Source: Streptomyces sp. NBC_00440 | GTDB lineage: Bacteria > Actinomycetota > Actinomycetes > Streptomycetales > Streptomycetaceae | Assembly: GCF_036014215.1 (NCBI RefSeq) | Contig: NZ_CP107921.1 | Location: forward strand, 6,879,501-6,943,500 | Length of the DNA stretch: 64,000 nt | Direction of reading: 5' to 3' | In this document: piece by piece, positions 3,204-28,316 of the stretch | How positions within the stretch are numbered: position 1 is the first letter of the stretch | How the letters are laid out: every line of letters begins with the position of its first letter | Translations under genes and position numbers: made by a program | Notes under the pieces: model-generated | The model's input: only the letters and a program-made list of their open reading frames with translations | Databases searched by the model: none | Told to the model about the DNA's origin: nothing

Positions 3204-4661
3204 TCAGTCCTCCCGCAGGGCGCGGACCGCTTCCTCGACGCGCTTGCCGTACTCGGTGTCGGCGGCGTGGAAGTGCGCGAGGTTCTTCTCGATGACCTCG
3301 TCGAGGGTGACCTGGGAGAGGCCGCCCGCGATGTTGGCGATCAGTCGCGACTTCTCGTCGTCGGACATCAGCCGGTACAGCTCGCCCGCCTGGAAGAAGT
3401 CGTCGTCCTTCACGTGCTCGGCAGCGGCCTGCGCTCCGGTCCAGCCGGTCACGGCCAGCGGGGCGGCCAGCGGCGCGTCCGTCTGGGCCGGGCCCGCGTG
3501 GGAGTTGGGCTCGTAGTTCTTGTCGTCGCGCTTGCCGTAGCGGGTCGCCATGTAGCCGTCACGACCGTAGTTGTCGGCGGTGGCGTTACGCGGTGCGTTG
3601 ACCGGCAGCTGCGTGTGGTTGATGCCCACGCGGTAGCGCTGCGCGTCGGCGTACGCGAAGAGACGGCCCTGGAGCATCTTGTCCGGCGAGGGACCGATGC
3701 CGGGGACGAAGTTGTTCGGCGAGAACGCCGCCTGCTCGACCTCGGCGAAGACGTTGTCCGGGTTGCGGTCCAGGACCAGACGGCCCACGCGCTGCAGCGG
3801 GTAGTCGCTGTGCGGCCACACCTTGGTGACGTCGAACGGGTTGAAGCGGTACTCGGCCGCCTCGGCCGCCGGCATGATCTGCACGTGCAGTGTCCAGGAC
3901 GGGTTGACGCCCCGCTCGATCGCCTGGAGCAGGTCGGTCTGGTGGCTGTTGCCGTCCTTGCCCACCAGCTCCGAAGCCTGGTCGGCGGAGAGGCTGCGGA
4001 CACCCTGGTTCGTCTTGAAGTGGTACTTGACGAAGAAGGCCTCACCCTGGGCGTTCGTCCACTGGTAGGTGTGCGAGCCGTAACCGTTCATGTGACGGTA
4101 CGAGGCGGGGATGCCGCGGTCACCCATCAGCCAGGTCACCTGGTGGGTGGCCTCGGGGGAGTGCGCCCAGAAGTCCCAGACGTTGTTGGGCTCCTGCTTG
4201 CCCGTGAACGGGTCACGCTTCTGCGAGTGGATGAAGTCCGGGAACTTGATGGGGTCCTTGATGAAGAAGACCGGGGTGTTGTTCCCCACGAGGTCGTAAT
4301 TGCCCTCGTCGGTGTAGAACTTCAGCGCGAAGCCGCGGGGGTCGCGCACCGCGTCGGAGCCGCCCAGCGAGTCGGCCACGGTGGAGAAGCGGATGAACGT
4401 CTCGGTCCGCTTGCCCACGCTGGAGAGGAAGTCGGCGCGGGTGAAGCCGGTGACGTCGTCGGTCACCTCGAAGTAGCCGTACGCACCGGAGCCGCGGGCG
4501 TGGACGACGCGCTCCGGAATGCGCTCCCGGTTGAACCGGGCGAGCTTCTCCAGCAGGTGCTGGTCCTGGAGGAGGATGGGGCCACCGACGCCGGCGGTGG
4601 CAGAGTTCTGGTTGTCGGCGACCGGGGCGCCTGACTCGGTCGTAAGCACGCGCTTCGACAT
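3204..4661 (-). CDS. monofunctional haem catalase
   Basis: Decomposes hydrogen peroxide. The 485-residue protein is of small-subunit size. The active-site His is in [11 protein letters not shown] (about residue 54), the distal Asn in [13 protein letters not shown], and the proximal haem Tyr in [12 protein letters not shown]. The ATG at 4661 follows GGAAGG. Uricase, encoded 4 kb away, releases hydrogen peroxide for each urate oxidised, which gives this catalase a local job. Its promoter region carries a palindrome almost identical to the one in front of the uricase operon, so the two are probably co-regulated. It is followed by the convergent terminator at 2811. Confidence 0.95.
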
Positions 4662-4699: not shown

Positions 4700-4742
4700 A
4701 GCGTAAATACACTGCGAACGCCGCGTCAACAGTTTGTTGAAA
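4700..4742 (-). promoter_or_regulatory. catalase promoter with TCAAC-N5-GTTGA palindrome
   Basis: On the minus strand TTTCAACAAACTGTTGACG (4724-4742) contains a perfect inverted repeat TCAAC-N5-GTTGA (4726-4740). Its right end supplies TTGACG, a good -35, with TACGCT 18 bp downstream as a possible -10. A factor bound here would block RNA polymerase. The uricase operon has the same site in the same orientation, with one base different. Confidence 0.7.
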
Positions 4743-4860
4743 TTGAAGTGAGGAGACCGGGCCGCGGCAGCGCCTGGGCGCGACAGGACAGGTGTCAGCG
4801 CTGCCGCGGACCGGAGTGCGGAAGGGGCCGGACGGAGCCCCGGAAGGGTGGAACTTGGTT

Positions 4861-5751
4861 TCAGACCTGCGAGCCGGACAGCCGCTCGACCGAGCGCAGC
4901 AGCGCGGAGTGGTCGAGGCCGCCGTCGCCCTGGGCGCGCAGCGAGGCGACCAGCTGGGCGACAACCGCGCCGACGGGCAGCGCGGCGCCGACGTTGCGGG
5001 CGGCGTCGGTGACGATGCCCATGTCCTTGTGGTGCAGGTCGATCCGGAAGCCGGGCTTGAAGTCCCGGTTCAGGAAGTTGTCCTTCTTGCGTGTCAGGAC
5101 GGTCGAACCGGCCAGGCCGCCGTTGAGGACGTCGAGGGCGGCGTTGAGGTTCACACCGGACTTCTCCAGGAAGACCACGGCCTCGGCGCACGCCTGGATG
5201 TTGACGGCGACGATCAGCTGGTTGGCGGCCTTCACCGTCTGGCCCGAACCGTGCGGACCGCAGAGCACGATGGTCTTGCCCAGCGCGTCCAGGATCGGCT
5301 TCGCGGCGTCGAAGTCGGCCTGCTCGCCGCCGACCATGATGGAGAGTACGGCCTCGATGGCACCGGCTTCGCCGCCGGAGACCGGGGCGTCCAGGACGCG
5401 CAGGCCCTTCTCGCCGCCCGCCTTGCCCAGATCGACCGAGGTCTGCGGGGTGATCGACGACATGTCGATCAGCAGCGCGCCCGCCTTGGCGTTCTCCAGG
5501 ATGCCGTCAGGACCGTACGCGATGGCCTCGACGTGCGGCGATGCGGGCACCATGGTGATCACCACGTCGGCGTCGCGCACCGCTTCGGCGATCGAGGACA
5601 CGGCGGTGCCGCCTGCGGCGGCGAGCCGGTCCAGCTTGTCCTGCTCCAGGGTGTAGCCGGTCACCGAGTAGCCGGCCTTGATCAGGTTCTCGGACATCGG
5701 GGAGCCCATGATGCCGAGGCCGATCCATGCGACCTTGGGGAGATTGCTCAT
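4861..5751 (-). CDS. glxR: 2-hydroxy-3-oxopropionate (tartronate semialdehyde) reductase
   Basis: NAD(P)H-dependent reduction of tartronate semialdehyde to glycerate in the glycerate branch of glyoxylate use. A Rossmann dinucleotide-binding motif opens the protein ([13 protein letters not shown]), followed by the 3-hydroxyisobutyrate dehydrogenase-family motifs [11 protein letters not shown] and [11 protein letters not shown] with the catalytic Lys. Length 296 is normal. It lies 35 bp behind hyi and is surely co-transcribed with it. GAGGAC precedes the ATG. Glyoxylate carboligase, which makes the substrate, is not in this window and may lie to the left. Confidence 0.92.
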
Positions 5752-5786
5752 GCGGGGGTCCTCTTTCAACACGCGGGTGGAGATGG

Positions 5787-6608
5787 TCAGTTGGGGAGCC
5801 AGCCGAAGGCGTCGGCGCTCGGGCGGTCGCCCGGCTTGTACTCCAGGCCGACCCAGCCGTCGTAGCCGGCCTTGGTCAGCCGGTCGAGCAGGTCCTCCAG
5901 CGGCAGCGAACCCGTACCGGGCGCGCCGCGGCCGGGGTTGTCCGCGATCTGCACGTGGCCGGTCTGCGCGGCGTAGGTGTCGATGACCTCGTTGAGGTCC
6001 TCGCCGTTCATCGACAGGTGGTACAGGTCGAGCAGGAACTTCGCGTTCCCGAGCCCCGTCAGGGCGTTGACCTTGTTGACCACGTCGATGGCCGCCGGAG
6101 CGCTCACCAGCGGGCAGAGCGGCGACTCCGGCTTGTTGAGCGCCTCGATGAGCAGGATCGCGCCCACCCGGTCGGCGGCGCGGGCCGCTACCGTGAGGTT
6201 CTCCAGGGCCAGCTCGTCCTGGACCGCCGGGTCCACACCTTCGACGCGGTTGCCGTACAGCGCGTTGAGCGCCTTGCAGCCGACCGATGCGGCGAAGTCG
6301 GCCGCGATGTCGATGTTGGCGCGGAAGCGGTCGGACTCCTGGCCGGGGACGGAGAGCGCGCCCCGGTCCGGGCCGGGGAGGCGGCCGGCGTAGAAGTTGA
6401 GACCCACCAGCTGGGTGCCGGCGTCGTCGAGCGCCTTTTTGAGCGCGTCGAGCTCGGCCTGCGGAGGGGTGGGGGTCTCGATCCAGGGCCACCACAGCTC
6501 GACCGCGCTGAAGCCGGCCGCGGCGGCGGCCGCGGGACGCTCCAGAAGCGGGAGTTCCGTGAAGAGGATCGAGAGGTTCACATCGAAGCGCTGGTCCGTG
6601 TAGCCCAT
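5787..6608 (-). CDS. hyi: hydroxypyruvate isomerase (TIM-barrel)
   Basis: Interconverts hydroxypyruvate and tartronate semialdehyde. The 273-residue protein has the xylose-isomerase-like barrel of the family, with metal-binding acidic residues in LLIEALN and LLDLYHLSMNGED and a late VGLEYKP. It is the first gene of a hyi-glxR unit. The promoter, at about 6685, carries two TTCC-N7-GGAA-type boxes just below the -10, the same arrangement as at the permease and allB promoters, which points to AllR repression lifted by allantoin breakdown products. AAGGAG lies rather far (about 14 bases) from the ATG. Confidence 0.92.
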   Translation of the reverse strand: MGYTDQRFDVNLSILFTELPLLERPAAAAAAGFSAVELWWPWIETPTPPQAELDALKKALDDAGTQLVGLNFYAGRLPGPDRGALSVPGQESDRFRANIDIAADFAASVGCKALNALYGNRVEGVDPAVQDELALENLTVAARAADRVGAILLIEALNKPESPLCPLVSAPAAIDVVNKVNALTGLGNAKFLLDLYHLSMNGEDLNEVIDTYAAQTGHVQIADNPGRGAPGTGSLPLEDLLDRLTKAGYDGWVGLEYKPGDRPSADAFGWLPN

Positions 6609-6625
6609 AAGGCGTTCGGCGCTCC

Positions 6626-6690
6626 TTCCGTATTGCGGAAGTTACTTTCTACTTGATGGAAGATTGCCTGCCGTCCTGGTCAGCTGTCAA
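6626..6690 (-). promoter_or_regulatory. hyi promoter with two AllR-type boxes
   Basis: On the minus strand TTGACA (6690-6685) and CAATCT (6666-6661, 18-bp spacer) form a promoter. Immediately downstream lie TTCTACTTGATGGAA (6647-6661, plus-strand reading) and the perfect TTCCGTATTGCGGAA (6626-6640), exactly 21 bp apart. The divergent gene at 6728 starts on the other side, so the boxes may affect both directions. Confidence 0.7.
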
Positions 6691-6727
6691 GTGGGCCTGC
6701 CTTTTTTCGTCACTCGCGCAGTAGGTT

Positions 6728-6994
6728 GTGCGCGTGCGATTGAGAGTGGAATTCACGACGGAGCCCTTTGATCTGGACGATGCGCCGCCCCATGCGGTGG
6801 TCGCCCGGGAGGTCATCCAGGCTGCCGAGCTGGACGCGGTGGACGTCGGGCCGTTCGGCAACACCGCCGAGGGCGCGTCGGACGCGGTGCTGACCGCGGT
6901 GGACGCGCTGCTCCGCCAGGCCCTGGGCGCGGGCGCCACCCGGGTCTCCCTCCAGGTGAACGTGATCGGGCAGGACGGGGAGGACCAGAAGTGA
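6728..6994 (+). CDS. small conserved protein, possibly thiamine-binding (MTH1187/YkoF-like)
   Basis: An 88-residue cytoplasmic protein with the alpha/beta look of the thiamine-binding family: a beta-strand start, a central NTAEGASDAVLTAVDALLR helix and a closing VSLQVNVI strand. The family assignment rests on general resemblance, not on a diagnostic residue. GTG at 6728 or 6734 can serve as start; the ribosome site is weak. Its stop overlaps the start of the helix-turn-helix gene, so the two form one unit, divergent from hyi and just upstream of the uricase operon. Confidence 0.6.
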   Translation: MRVRLRVEFTTEPFDLDDAPPHAVVAREVIQAAELDAVDVGPFGNTAEGASDAVLTAVDALLRQALGAGATRVSLQVNVIGQDGEDQK

Positions 6995-7368
6995 CCGAGC
7001 CGGGAGACCACCCCCTTGTTGCAGCGGTGAAGCCGCTGGCCGATGCCATGGGGGCCGAGATCCTCGTACCGGACCAGGCGAGGGAGGACGACGTCGTGCT
7101 CGCCTGGGAGGGGGTGGACGTCCTGGCCGTGCGGCTGCCGCAGCTCTCGGACTCCCTGGACCACATCCTGGCGGCCCTGGAGCGCCGGCACGGGGTGCCG
7201 CTCTCGGAGCTCGACCGCAAGACGAAACAGGCCGTGGTGCGGATACTGGAGGGGCGCGGTGCCTTCTCGGTACGCCATGGCGTGGAGACGGTGGCGGGTG
7301 CGCTCGGGGTCAGCCGCTTCACCGTCTACAACTACCTGAACCGGGAAAACGTCGCCAAGAGTGACTGA
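6991..7368 (+). CDS. small helix-turn-helix DNA-binding protein
   Basis: A 125-residue protein whose C-terminal third (RKTKQAVVRILEGRGAFSV to VSRFTVYNYLNRE) forms a Fis/YheO-like helix-turn-helix: helix, turn GALGVS, recognition helix RFTVYNYL. The N-terminal part has no recognisable ligand domain. It starts at a GTG overlapping the upstream stop and ends before a strong terminator. It sits between the catalase/hyi block and the uricase operon, making it one candidate (inference only) for the factor that binds the shared TCAAC-N5-GTTGA palindrome. Confidence 0.75.
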   Translation: MTEPGDHPLVAAVKPLADAMGAEILVPDQAREDDVVLAWEGVDVLAVRLPQLSDSLDHILAALERRHGVPLSELDRKTKQAVVRILEGRGAFSVRHGVETVAGALGVSRFTVYNYLNRENVAKSD

Positions 7369-7450
7369 GCCCGTGACTGGGCCCGTGACCGGGCCTTGTG
7401 ATGACTGAGCCGTGCCGTGGCGGGCGAAGCAGGCCCCGTCACGTCCGACA

Positions 7451-7482
7451 GCCGCCGTCCGGGATGCCGGGCGGCGGTTTTT
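7451..7482 (+). terminator. rho-independent terminator
   Basis: Stem CCGCCGTCCGG / CCGGGCGGCGG with a short loop, followed by TTTTT. It ends the two-gene unit 6728-7368 just before the uricase-operon promoter. Confidence 0.85.
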
Positions 7483-7494
7483 GTCTCACCAAGT

Positions 7495-7536
7495 TTTCAA
7501 CAAAGTGTTGACGTGGTGTTTCCGAGGGCGTTAGCT
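7495..7536 (+). promoter_or_regulatory. uricase-operon promoter with TCAAC-N5-GTTGA palindrome
   Basis: TTTCAACAAAGTGTTGACG (7495-7513) holds the inverted repeat TCAAC-N5-GTTGA (7497-7511). Its end forms the -35 TTGACG (7508-7513); TTAGCT follows after 17 bp as a -10 candidate. The site differs by one base in 19 from the catalase promoter site, in the same orientation relative to the gene. Confidence 0.72.
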
Positions 7537-7585
7537 ATCCGCAGCCCGTCCAGCACAAGGCCCATACAAGGCCACGGAGGTCCCC

Positions 7586-8155
7586 GTGACTTCGAGTCCA
7601 GAGCGCTTGCCGGGGGAGAACCCCGGAACCCCCGCGGGTCTCGCCCGGTTCAACACCCTGCGGGACAGCGCGGCGCAAGCCGTGCTTCACGAGGTCTGCG
7701 CCAGTTCGGTCTGGGGGAGCAAAATCCTCGCCCAGCGCCCCTACGCCACAGCTGAAGCCCTCTTTCTCGCCAGCGACGCCGCCACGGCCGAGCTGACCGC
7801 GGAAGATCTGGCCGAGGCGATGGCCGGGCACCCGCCGATCGGGCGGCCGAAACCCGGAGACCCGACGTCCTCCCGTGAACAGCGGGGGATGGCCGGGGCC
7901 ACCGAGGAGCTCAAGGCCGAGATGCTCGAACTGAACCTGGCCTACCAGGAGAAGTTCGGACATGTCTTTCTGATCTGCGCGACCGGTGCCACCGGCGAGC
8001 AGATGCGCGACGCGATGCAGGCCCGGTCCGGCAATACGCCCGAGCAGGAGCGCGCGATCGTGCGCACCGAACTCGGCAAGATCAACCGCATCCGGCTGAA
8101 TCTGGTCGCAGCGGCCACCGCGGAGAACGCGGCGGCCGCGGAAGAAGGAGAGTGA
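7586..8155 (+). CDS. uraD: OHCU decarboxylase
   Basis: 2-oxo-4-hydroxy-4-carboxy-5-ureidoimidazoline decarboxylase, the last enzyme from urate to S-allantoin. The catalytic His is in GHPPIG (about residue 82), followed by the conserved SREQ (96-99). At 189 residues it is of family size with a short N-terminal extension. GTG start after CGGAGG. It is first in a three-gene operon with 5-hydroxyisourate hydrolase and uricase, so the whole urate-to-allantoin route is made from one message. Confidence 0.95.
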   Translation: MTSSPERLPGENPGTPAGLARFNTLRDSAAQAVLHEVCASSVWGSKILAQRPYATAEALFLASDAATAELTAEDLAEAMAGHPPIGRPKPGDPTSSREQRGMAGATEELKAEMLELNLAYQEKFGHVFLICATGATGEQMRDAMQARSGNTPEQERAIVRTELGKINRIRLNLVAAATAENAAAAEEGE

Positions 8156-8160
8156 AGGCC

Positions 8161-8550
8161 TTGAGCACGCAGACCACCGCTTCGGTGTCCACGCACATCC
8201 TGGACACCAGCGTGGGACGCCCCGCCGAAGGTGTCGCCATCTCGCTCGCGGCCCGCAGTGGCTCCGGCGAGCAGTGGACGGCACTGGGCGGATCCGCGAC
8301 CGACGCCGACGGGCGCTGCAAGGACCTGCCGGCTCTGCCGGAAGGAACAACCCACGTACGCCTCGATTTCGAAACCGAGGCGTACTTCTCCAAGAAACAA
8401 GCCGAGGCACAGCAGGACGCCCCCCGCGTAAGGGACAGCGGCGCTTTCTTCCCGGAGGTGGCGATCACATTCGCCGTCGTCCCGGGTGAGCACTTCCACG
8501 TACCGCTGCTGCTCAACCCGTTCGGCTACTCCGTATACCGAGGGAGCTAG
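8161..8550 (+). CDS. uraH: 5-hydroxyisourate hydrolase (transthyretin-like)
   Basis: Hydrolyses 5-hydroxyisourate to OHCU, the middle step between uricase and UraD. The transthyretin-related fold is recognisable from STHILDTSVGRPA near the start, FFPEV in the middle and the family's C-terminal signature YRGS. I chose the TTG at 8161 because AAGGAG lies 10 bases before it; a GTG at 8152 overlapping the uraD stop is too close to that ribosome site. Length about 129 residues. Confidence 0.93.
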   Translation: MSTQTTASVSTHILDTSVGRPAEGVAISLAARSGSGEQWTALGGSATDADGRCKDLPALPEGTTHVRLDFETEAYFSKKQAEAQQDAPRVRDSGAFFPEVAITFAVVPGEHFHVPLLLNPFGYSVYRGS

Positions 8551-8557
8551 CAACGTC

Positions 8558-9481
8558 ATGCCCACGATTCTCGGCCAGAACCAGTACGGCAAAGCAGAGA
8601 ACCGCGTAGTCAAGATCACGCGGGACGGCGACACCCATCACATCAAGGACCTGAACGTCTCGGTCGCGCTCTCCGGCGAGATGGACGACGTCCACTACTC
8701 CGGCTCGAACGCCAACGTCCTGCCGACCGACACCACCAAGAACACGGTGTTCGCGTTCGCCAAGGAGCACGGCATCGAGTCCGCCGAGCAGTTCGGCATC
8801 CACCTGGCGCGGCACTTCGTGACCACCCAGGAAGGGATCCACCGGGCCCGGATCCGGATCGAGGAGTACGCCTGGGAGCGCATCGCCACCTCCGACGCCA
8901 GCTCGCAGTTCATCGGAGCCGACGACGTACAGCACTCCTTCGTCCGCAAGGGCCAGGAACTGCGCACCTCGGAGATCACCTTCGACGGTGAGAAGTGGCA
9001 GGTCATCTCGGGTCTGAAGGACCTGACGGTGATGAACTCCACCAACTCGGAGTTCTGGGGCTACGCCAAGGACAAGTACACGACCCTCAAGGAGGCGTAC
9101 GACCGCATCCTCGCGACCAAGGTTGCCGCCCAGTGGCGTTACAACTGGACCAGCGACGCGGACCGTATGCCGAACTGGGAGAAGTCCTACCAGCAGTGCA
9201 AGAAGCACATGCTCCAGGCCTTCGCCGAGACGTACTCGCTCTCCCTGCAGCAGACCATGTACCAGATGGGCGCGCGCATCATCAACAGCCGCAGCGAGGT
9301 CGACGAGATCCGGTTCTCGCTGCCGAACAGCCACCACTTCCTGGTGGACCTGGAGCCCTTCGGGCTCAAGAACGACAACGAGGTCTACTTCGCGGCGGAC
9401 CGGCCGTACGGGCTCATCGAGGGGACCGTCCTGCGGGACGGCGCCGATCCTCGTATCCCGGTGGACATGACCAACCTCTGA
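8558..9481 (+). CDS. uox: urate oxidase (uricase)
   Basis: Cofactor-free oxidation of urate to 5-hydroxyisourate, giving hydrogen peroxide. The 307-residue tandem T-fold protein keeps the catalytic residues: Lys in YGKAENRVVK (about residue 12), Thr57 in LPTDTTKN and the C-terminal His in NSHHFLVDL; the substrate-side Gln/Asn region SLQQTMYQM is present. The ATG at 8558 follows GGGAG. It ends the uraD-uraH-uox operon and is followed by a strong hairpin. The peroxide it makes explains coupling to the nearby catalase. Confidence 0.96.
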   Translation: MPTILGQNQYGKAENRVVKITRDGDTHHIKDLNVSVALSGEMDDVHYSGSNANVLPTDTTKNTVFAFAKEHGIESAEQFGIHLARHFVTTQEGIHRARIRIEEYAWERIATSDASSQFIGADDVQHSFVRKGQELRTSEITFDGEKWQVISGLKDLTVMNSTNSEFWGYAKDKYTTLKEAYDRILATKVAAQWRYNWTSDADRMPNWEKSYQQCKKHMLQAFAETYSLSLQQTMYQMGARIINSRSEVDEIRFSLPNSHHFLVDLEPFGLKNDNEVYFAADRPYGLIEGTVLRDGADPRIPVDMTNL

Positions 9482-21897: not shown

Positions 21898-21939
21898 TTC
21901 TGACGTGTGGATACTAGTTTCCTCATGGTGGAAGTTCAA
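21898..21939 (-). promoter_or_regulatory. aceB promoter with AllR-type boxes
   Basis: Minus-strand TTGAAC (21939-21934), 17-bp spacer, TAGTAT (21916-21911). The perfect box TTCCTCATGGTGGAA (21919-21933) fills the spacer; a second one, TTCTGACGTGTGGAT (21898-21912), lies exactly 21 bp downstream, over the -10 and the likely transcription start. Confidence 0.72.
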
Positions 21940-21998
21940 CGTATGTTGACATCGAGATTCTCCGGATCGACAGAATTCGTCGCAGAGTGCCAGGTCGG

Positions 21999-27288: not shown

Positions 27289-28092
27289 TCAGACCTGCTG
27301 GGGTCCCGCGCTCGCGAGGGTGGCCGAGAGCTCCAGGGCGATGCCCTGGAGGATCGGCACGATCCGTTCGGTCGCCTCCTCCGTCACCCGGCCCGCCGGA
27401 CCCGAGATCGAGATCGCGGCGGCCGTGGGGGAGTTGGGGACCTGGACCGCGAGGCAGCGGACCCCGATCTCCTGCTCGTTGTCGTCCACCGCGTACCCCG
27501 CGCGGCGTACGACCTCCAGGGCGTCCAGGAACCCCTCGGGCGTGGTGATCGTCTTCTCGGTGGCGGCCGGCATACCGGTCCGTGCCAGCAGCGCCCTGAC
27601 CTCGGGCGGCGAGGTGTGCGCGAGCAGCGCCTTGCCGACTCCGGTGGAGTGCGGCAGGACCCGCCGCCCCACCTCGGTGAACATCCGCATGGAGTGCTTC
27701 GACGGGACCTGCGCGACGTACACGACCTCGTCCCCGTCGAGCAGGGCCATGTTCGCCGTCTCCCCGGTCTCCTCGACCAGCCGCGCGAGATAGGGGCGGG
27801 CCCAGGTCCCGAGCAGCCGGGCCGACGACTCGCCGAGCCGGATCAGGCGCGGGCCCAGCGCGTAGCGCCGGTTGGGCTGCTGGCGTACGTAGCCGCAGGC
27901 GACCAGAGTGCGCATCAGCCGGTGGATCGTGGGCAGCGGCAGACCGCTGGCGGCCGAGAGCTCGCTCAGGCCGACCTCTCCACCGGCGTCGGCCATCCGC
28001 TCCAGCAGATCGAAGGCGCGCTCCAGGGACTGGACGCCACCGCTCGGTGCTGCGGTCTTGGCGTCGGGTGCGCTGGCGTGGGACTGCGGCAC
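27289..28092 (-). CDS. allR: IclR-family repressor AllR
   Basis: 267-residue IclR-type regulator: N-terminal winged helix-turn-helix ([38 protein letters not shown]), then the effector domain with [11 protein letters not shown] and [19 protein letters not shown]. It lies divergent from allantoinase, the position of the known S. coelicolor allantoin repressor AllR, for which allantoic acid and glyoxylate are the inducers I recall. The GTG start follows AAAGGA. The four promoters with paired TTCC-N7-GGAA boxes in this window are its likely targets. Confidence 0.9.
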
Positions 28093-28316
28093 GGCGGCGG
28101 TCCTTTCGAGGCGGGCGGGGCAAGGCGCCAGCCTACCGGGCCGGAGCCCGCTGTATCCCCCTCGGCGGCAGGCGTTGGGGCCGGTCAGGACCCCTTTGTC
28201 CGGATCAGGCGGCCGGATGGGTACGATCCGGACCCAGGGGTACCGGAGGGAAGCACATTCCGGCACCCGAAATTCGGCTTTTGCTTTGTGGAATCATCCA
28301 GGCGGCCGGTCCGGTC

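Follow-up and report, generated by a model that had tools for sequence, protein, structure and literature searches.

A palindromic operator shared by the catalase and uricase promoters of Streptomyces, and a candidate regulator encoded between them

The two operators and the genes around them

We analysed a stretch of 64,000 nucleotides from Streptomyces sp. NBC_00440 (contig NZ_CP107921.1, positions 6,879,501 to 6,943,500; the window, to which all window positions below refer), in which a catalase gene and the uricase operon uraD-uraH-uox carry almost the same palindromic operator over the -35 region of their promoters. Two overlapping genes (6734-6994 and 6991-7368) lie between both operators and read towards uraD, and this pair is a strong candidate for the regulator. 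The features are as follows.

4724..4742, minus strand: catalase operator TTTCAACAAACTGTTGACG, covering the catalase -35, with its core palindrome at 4726-4740
7495..7513, plus strand: uraD-uraH-uox operator TTTCAACAAAGTGTTGACG, covering the -35, with its core at 7497-7511
4700..4705, minus strand: putative catalase -10, TACGCT, 18 bp from TTGACG
7532..7537, plus strand: putative uraD -10, TAGCTA, 18 bp from TTGACG
6734..6994, plus strand: thiamine-binding-fold protein of 86 amino acids, proposed sensor subunit (PF01910, 22.7 bits; cut-off 24.9)
6991..7368, plus strand: HTH_22 protein of 125 amino acids, proposed DNA-binding subunit (PF13309, E=4.8e-20), which co-occurs with the operator
3204..4661, minus strand: monofunctional catalase of 485 amino acids (PF00199, E=2.2e-188)
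7586..8155, plus strand: uraD, 2-oxo-4-hydroxy-4-carboxy-5-ureidoimidazoline (OHCU) decarboxylase (PF09349)
8152..8550, plus strand: uraH, 5-hydroxyisourate (HIU) hydrolase (PF00576), start codon uncertain
8558..9481, plus strand: uox, urate oxidase (TIGR03383 equivalog, E=3.6e-107)
4861..5751, minus strand: tartronate semialdehyde reductase-like protein (PF03446/PF14833), whose gene we take to be glxR
5787..6608, minus strand: hydroxypyruvate isomerase-like protein (PF01261), whose gene is presumably hyi

An earlier sequence-only reading had placed the two 19-mers at 4742-4724 (minus strand) and 7495-7513 (plus strand), differing at one base and oriented alike to their genes, and these positions are correct. 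It gave the symmetric core as TCAAC-N5-GTTGA; the symmetry is real, but its extent was understated, since both 19-mers hold the perfect 6-3-6 palindrome TCAACA-N3-TGTTGA. By inspection, the downstream half of the palindrome supplies TTGACG as the -35 of both promoters, as had been proposed (TTGACG-18-TACGCT for catalase and TTGACG-18-TAGCTA for uraD). The catalase -10 is mostly kept across 30 loci, and the uraD -10 is seen again in relatives. Beyond the uraD -10, the stretch TTAGCTATCCGCAGCCC (window 7530-7550; relatives L087-L145) is conserved in many Streptomyces and may be either the start site or an additional element.

No third copy of the 19-mer with up to 3 mismatches was found in the 64-kb window, and none in 100 shuffles, while the looser core TCAAC-N5-GTTGA has 2 matches in the window against a shuffle mean of 0.03. 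In the complete 8.68-Mb genome, the exact palindrome has exactly three copies (catalase, uraD and C1:845039), and its one-mismatch copies include one each 5' of a urea transporter-urease gamma pair (L014) and of a sodium:solute symporter (L005). Besides, at window 21936-21951, 5' of malate synthase, TTCAACGTATGTTGAC has half-sites almost identical to these, and its spacer is shorter by one base.

Conservation of the palindrome and its co-occurrence with the HTH_22 gene

The palindrome was sought before the katA- and uox-type genes of other Streptomyces, and it is conserved at both. There are 343 exact matches, spread over 117 of 121 Streptomyces genomes, and in the control, the pattern read backwards, 4 genomes of the same set had a single match each. 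For catalase, the exact site TCAACAAACTGTTGA stands 62-103 bp before the start in all 30 upstream regions examined among the closest Streptomyces orthologues (30 of the 71 Streptomyces matches listed at 81% identity or more). On the uraD side, the exact site was found in 63 of the 64 loci that were cut around the HTH_22 gene; the sole miss (L133) is a cut of about 3.4 kb from a genome whose uricase lies about 5 kb off, so the uraD promoter is outside the cut. The common switch suggested by the sequence-only reading is therefore well supported.

We classified 76 distinct sites (75 of the 343 and one from genome G552) by the nearest downstream gene. Most frequent are sites before uraD (25) and before catalase (13), followed by those in the intergenic region of cydA (cytochrome bd subunit I) and a cyclophilin-like gene (11, of which 3 fall within the beginning of the cyclophilin-like match). 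The others stand before ureA (4), before DUF6986 (3), between or before allB/allR (3), before an NCS2 permease of the xanthine-permease subfamily (1) and within MarR coding sequence (10), and 6 are classed as "other", one of which (L074) is a fourth site preceding a DUF6986 gene. The cydA/cyclophilin-like intergenic sites are found in L019, L022, L025, L037, L038, L040, L045, L071, L076, L080 and L082. The MarR-internal matches, which have a GCC/GGC spacer (L017, L041, L057, L069, L383, L385, L388, L389, L391 and L393), are counted as coding coincidence, and they inflate the raw genome-wide site totals in both the 121 Streptomyces genomes and the 61-genome family sample.

The operator goes together with the HTH_22 gene. 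In the four site-less Streptomyces genomes (G010, G043, G050 and G113) this gene is absent, or frame-split in G010. In the family sample the site occurs in 54 of 55 HTH_22-positive genomes versus 1 of 6 negative ones. Across 394 genomes of the class, an HTH_22 match at E<=1e-12 was found in five that lie outside the family; in each of these, the exact site follows the HTH_22 gene directly and precedes uraD or uox. Among uricase loci without an intact HTH_22 gene, the exact site is present in 0 of 39 (4 Streptomycetaceae loci and 35 of other families), and the 35, which were drawn from 125 non-family uricase genomes without an HTH_22 match, lack it even at 1 mismatch. One further locus (L207) was left out of the 39, as its contig ends within uraD. 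Fisher's test of 5/5 versus 0/39 gives p of about 9e-7, uncorrected for shared ancestry; L199 (G527; HTH_22, no site) and L200-L202 (HTH_22 and site) are outside this table.

Range and architecture of the candidate regulator

A scan of public genomes with an alignment of the fused form of the protein extends this range, and 80 of the 551 confirmed stretches were analysed. The 80 loci come from at least 17 named genera, such as Amycolatopsis, Prauserella, Kutzneria, Saccharomonospora, Saccharopolyspora, Actinopolyspora, Nocardia, Nocardioides, Kribbella, Pedococcus, Phycicoccus, Streptacidiphilus and Kitasatospora, and from unplaced metagenome-assembled genomes. Uricase genes (uraD/uox) are nearby in 76 of them, with an exact site before uraD/uox in 75 and a site with one mismatch in the remaining one (L361). 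Generally, the exact site is no more than 900 bp downstream of the HTH_22 gene (73 of the 80 loci), and in L371 and L376 it stands directly 5' of a displaced uraD. L353, L356, L370 and L374 contain neither a uraD/uox match nor a site. Downstream of the HTH_22 homologue in L353 come genes for an M20-type peptidase/hydrolase and for a carbon-nitrogen hydrolase, and this homologue may control another nitrogen pathway.

The two proteins are also found as one, namely in many actinobacteria other than Streptomyces. In L147-L150 the thiamine-binding-fold and HTH_22 domains share one open frame, and both Pfam domains occur in 111 of 120 fused-protein homologues, among the matches listed. The HTH_22 domain of the window protein is clear (71.8 bits; Pfam cut-off 29.6), and PF01910 in five fused homologues scores above its cut-off of 24.9 in three (25.4, 28.7 and 40.8) and below it in two (19.8 and 19.9). 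The N-terminal part of the fused-homologue profile matches the MTH1187/UPF0045 PDB entries 1yqh, 1lxn and 2eky. AlphaFold predicts for a fused protein (mean predicted local distance difference test score 88.5, predicted template modelling score 0.49) a beta-alpha-beta-beta-alpha-beta domain, a long helix and a C-terminal helix group. The motif RFTVYNYLN is invariant in a 17-member alignment and is found in the window protein too. Co-occurrence, breadth and fusion together point to the overlapping pair at 6734-7368 as the likely regulator, and with it the second regulator that the sequence-only reading had implied has a strong candidate gene.

This architecture is unusual. The matched UPF0045/MTH1187 chains in PDB are of about 100 residues, with the match confined to that domain, whereas here the domain adjoins or fuses with HTH_22 and is tied to a conserved operator. 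The C-terminal HTH_22 (PF13309) is common to the window protein and to regulators of the YheO/DauR type, one of which is mentioned for Campylobacter in PMC10717218. Unlike that type, the protein here is paired with a thiamine-binding fold and has uricase genes as its proposed targets, and no match to a YheO-like PAS domain was found at E<=0.01 in the 125-amino-acid protein or in five fused homologues. HucR of Deinococcus and PucR of Bacillus subtilis are local regulators of urate oxidation or purine catabolism as well, but they belong to the MarR and PucR families and their operators are different. We found no description of the operator or the regulator in the open-access literature, subscription papers being outside that search.

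Proposed mechanism and alternatives

We consider it highly probable that a single repressor devoted to urate oxidation acts at both boxes, and this repressor is most likely the product of the pair at 6734-7368. The thiamine-binding-fold (MTH1187/UPF0045-like) subunit would bind an effector and the HTH_22 subunit would bind the palindrome TCAACA-AAN-TGTTGA, so that the bound repressor would cover the -35 and block RNA polymerase. A metabolite of the purine pathway would release it; the target genes make urate, or an intermediate close to it, the simplest guess. The release would turn on uraD-uraH-uox and, in Streptomyces, also catalase, which would remove the peroxide made by uricase.

Several observations weigh against this repressor. 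Within the window, no exact site stands at the promoter of the gene pair itself. Uricase is kept in G010 and G050 and absent from G043, G113 and G120; as G043 and G113 have no uricase and G050 is a draft genome, 82% complete, only G010 is a clean case among the site-less Streptomyces. G120 contains one site, its HTH_22 match is just a weak paralogue and it gave no match to uricase; in G527, HTH_22 and uox are present without the site, and G552 has 2 sites (L197 and L198) with no HTH_22 or uricase match. In addition, the genome counts are not phylogenetically independent. For catalase loci of other Streptomycetaceae genera, the exact site was found in 1 of 30 (L401), and it is degenerate or absent in the other 29, some of which are perhaps paralogues: six (L402-L407) show TTGACA-N3-TGTTGA, which differs at two bases, and in 23 nothing was found within two mismatches. 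The last point comes from SCO6209-6211, the equivalents of uraD-uraH-uox, whose transcripts are lower under oxidative stress via HbpS-SenS-SenR, with a SenR site predicted upstream of SCO6209, according to PMC4991794. This would be a further layer of control, not an alternative to the palindrome. Other papers describe SCO6208, which by its position appears to be the HTH_22 gene, as a putative transposase (PMC3897704), SCO6204 as a putative catalase (PMC7324645), and changes of the same sign for SCO6209, SCO6247 and SCO6248 (PMC6629963).

Judged from these loci, the catalase operator is essentially a feature of Streptomyces and of one neighbouring genus among the genera examined, while the uricase operator, by contrast, spans many actinobacterial families. 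In loci from sister genera (L408 and L410, and by eye L411), the catalase orthologue comes immediately after an allantoicase gene (PF03561), which suggests the same link to purines by way of co-transcription. This adjacency supports, though does not prove, the logic of self-protection.

The pair might act as an activator instead of a repressor, which we regard as unlikely. The direction of control is not readable from sequence alone, and the HTH_22 subunit could conceivably contact sigma at the -35. However, the -35 hexamer is within the palindrome, and an operator that covers the -35 suits a repressor. Genomes that lost the regulator are informative here. In G010 (HTH_22 frame-split) the uraD promoter retains TGTTGACG and the -10 region, with TTAACA in the distal half in place of TCAACA, leaving a one-mismatch remnant of the site. 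In G529 (HTH_22 missing), TGTTGACG and a -10-like TAGCTT 17 bp further are kept and the distal half is gone. Both genomes keep uox. Such a pattern, seen in two cases, would be expected if RNA polymerase needs the -35 half alone and the regulator needs both halves, and it points to a repressor and against an obligate activator. L203 and L206 are the loci of these two clear cases, in which the TTGACG half, a -10-like element and uricase are kept after regulator loss. G514 has an upstream TTGACG with no clear promoter counterpart, the region is lost in G266, and in G527, where the regulator is present and the site is not, there is no TTGAC at that position.

It is rather improbable that an unlinked regulator of another kind binds the operator and that the HTH_22 gene is simply kept next to uricase. 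For such a regulator speak the two sites of G552 and the third exact site of the genome, at C1:845039 (L016), which lies 5' of a gene for a regulator with GAF, GGDEF-like and PucR-C domains (TTGACT, 17 bp from TAGGTT); in G023, the locus of an 85%-identical orthologue (L432) likewise has the exact site. But beyond G023 the nearest match among the 121 Streptomyces is 53% identical and none of the others among the 30 loci examined has a site, and this GAF/PucR-type gene was set aside as a candidate for the master regulator. Moreover, an unlinked regulator does not fit the contrast between uricase loci in which the HTH_22 gene is not intact (exact site in 0 of 39) and those that have it (75 of 76).

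AllR of Streptomyces controls the genes for purine-derived allantoin and for glyoxylate; it belongs to the IclR family and thus differs in protein family from the HTH_22 pair. In the window, an IclR-family gene (27289-28266) adjoins allantoinase, and 3 of the 76 classified sites fall between or before allB/allR. The sequence-only reading set the boxes apart from the AllR type, which is plausible: the Escherichia coli AllR motif KTTGGAAWAWTWTTCCAAC is not seen at either box by inspection, though a comparison with the motif of another organism is not a strict test. As printed in PMC8222616, KTTGGAAWAWTWTTCCAAC has its half-sites in the order opposite to that of TTYC-N6-8-GGAA, the box assumed to be of AllR type. 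The latter box has 4 matches in the window (mean 2.13 and maximum 6 in 100 mononucleotide shuffles), so the copies near hyi, near aceB and at 19.8 kb are not commoner than in shuffles. AllR is also not needed to explain the co-occurrence with HTH_22, and it is very improbable that both boxes are AllR sites. Finally, although TTGACG as a -35 hexamer would keep half of each box conserved regardless, a chance likeness of two strong -35 regions is ruled out for practical purposes, as the full palindrome with its distal half is conserved in the sets of 63/64, 75/76 and 30/30 and the controls are near zero.

In conclusion, the repressor reading leads to a wider one, towards which we lean: the pair may represent an undescribed family of actinobacterial regulators, in which a thiamine-binding-fold sensor and an HTH_22 binder, as two genes or fused, would sense a metabolite of the urate pathway and repress uricase. 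In Streptomyces this control would have been extended to catalase, and certain species would have added the genes for urease, allantoinase, a purine permease and cytochrome bd. If so, the handling of peroxide and ammonia would rise alongside urate oxidation. What is new is a strong candidate for a regulator with unusual architecture and a range well beyond Streptomyces, which gives urate oxidation in a large group of soil bacteria a regulator, an operator and a regulon that can be tested. It would be a simple case of an enzyme with a toxic by-product and its detoxifier wired to one switch, and the thiamine-binding fold would gain a role as a transcriptional sensor. Besides, provided that the ligand is confirmed, a switch or biosensor that responds to purines could be made from the operator and the protein pair.

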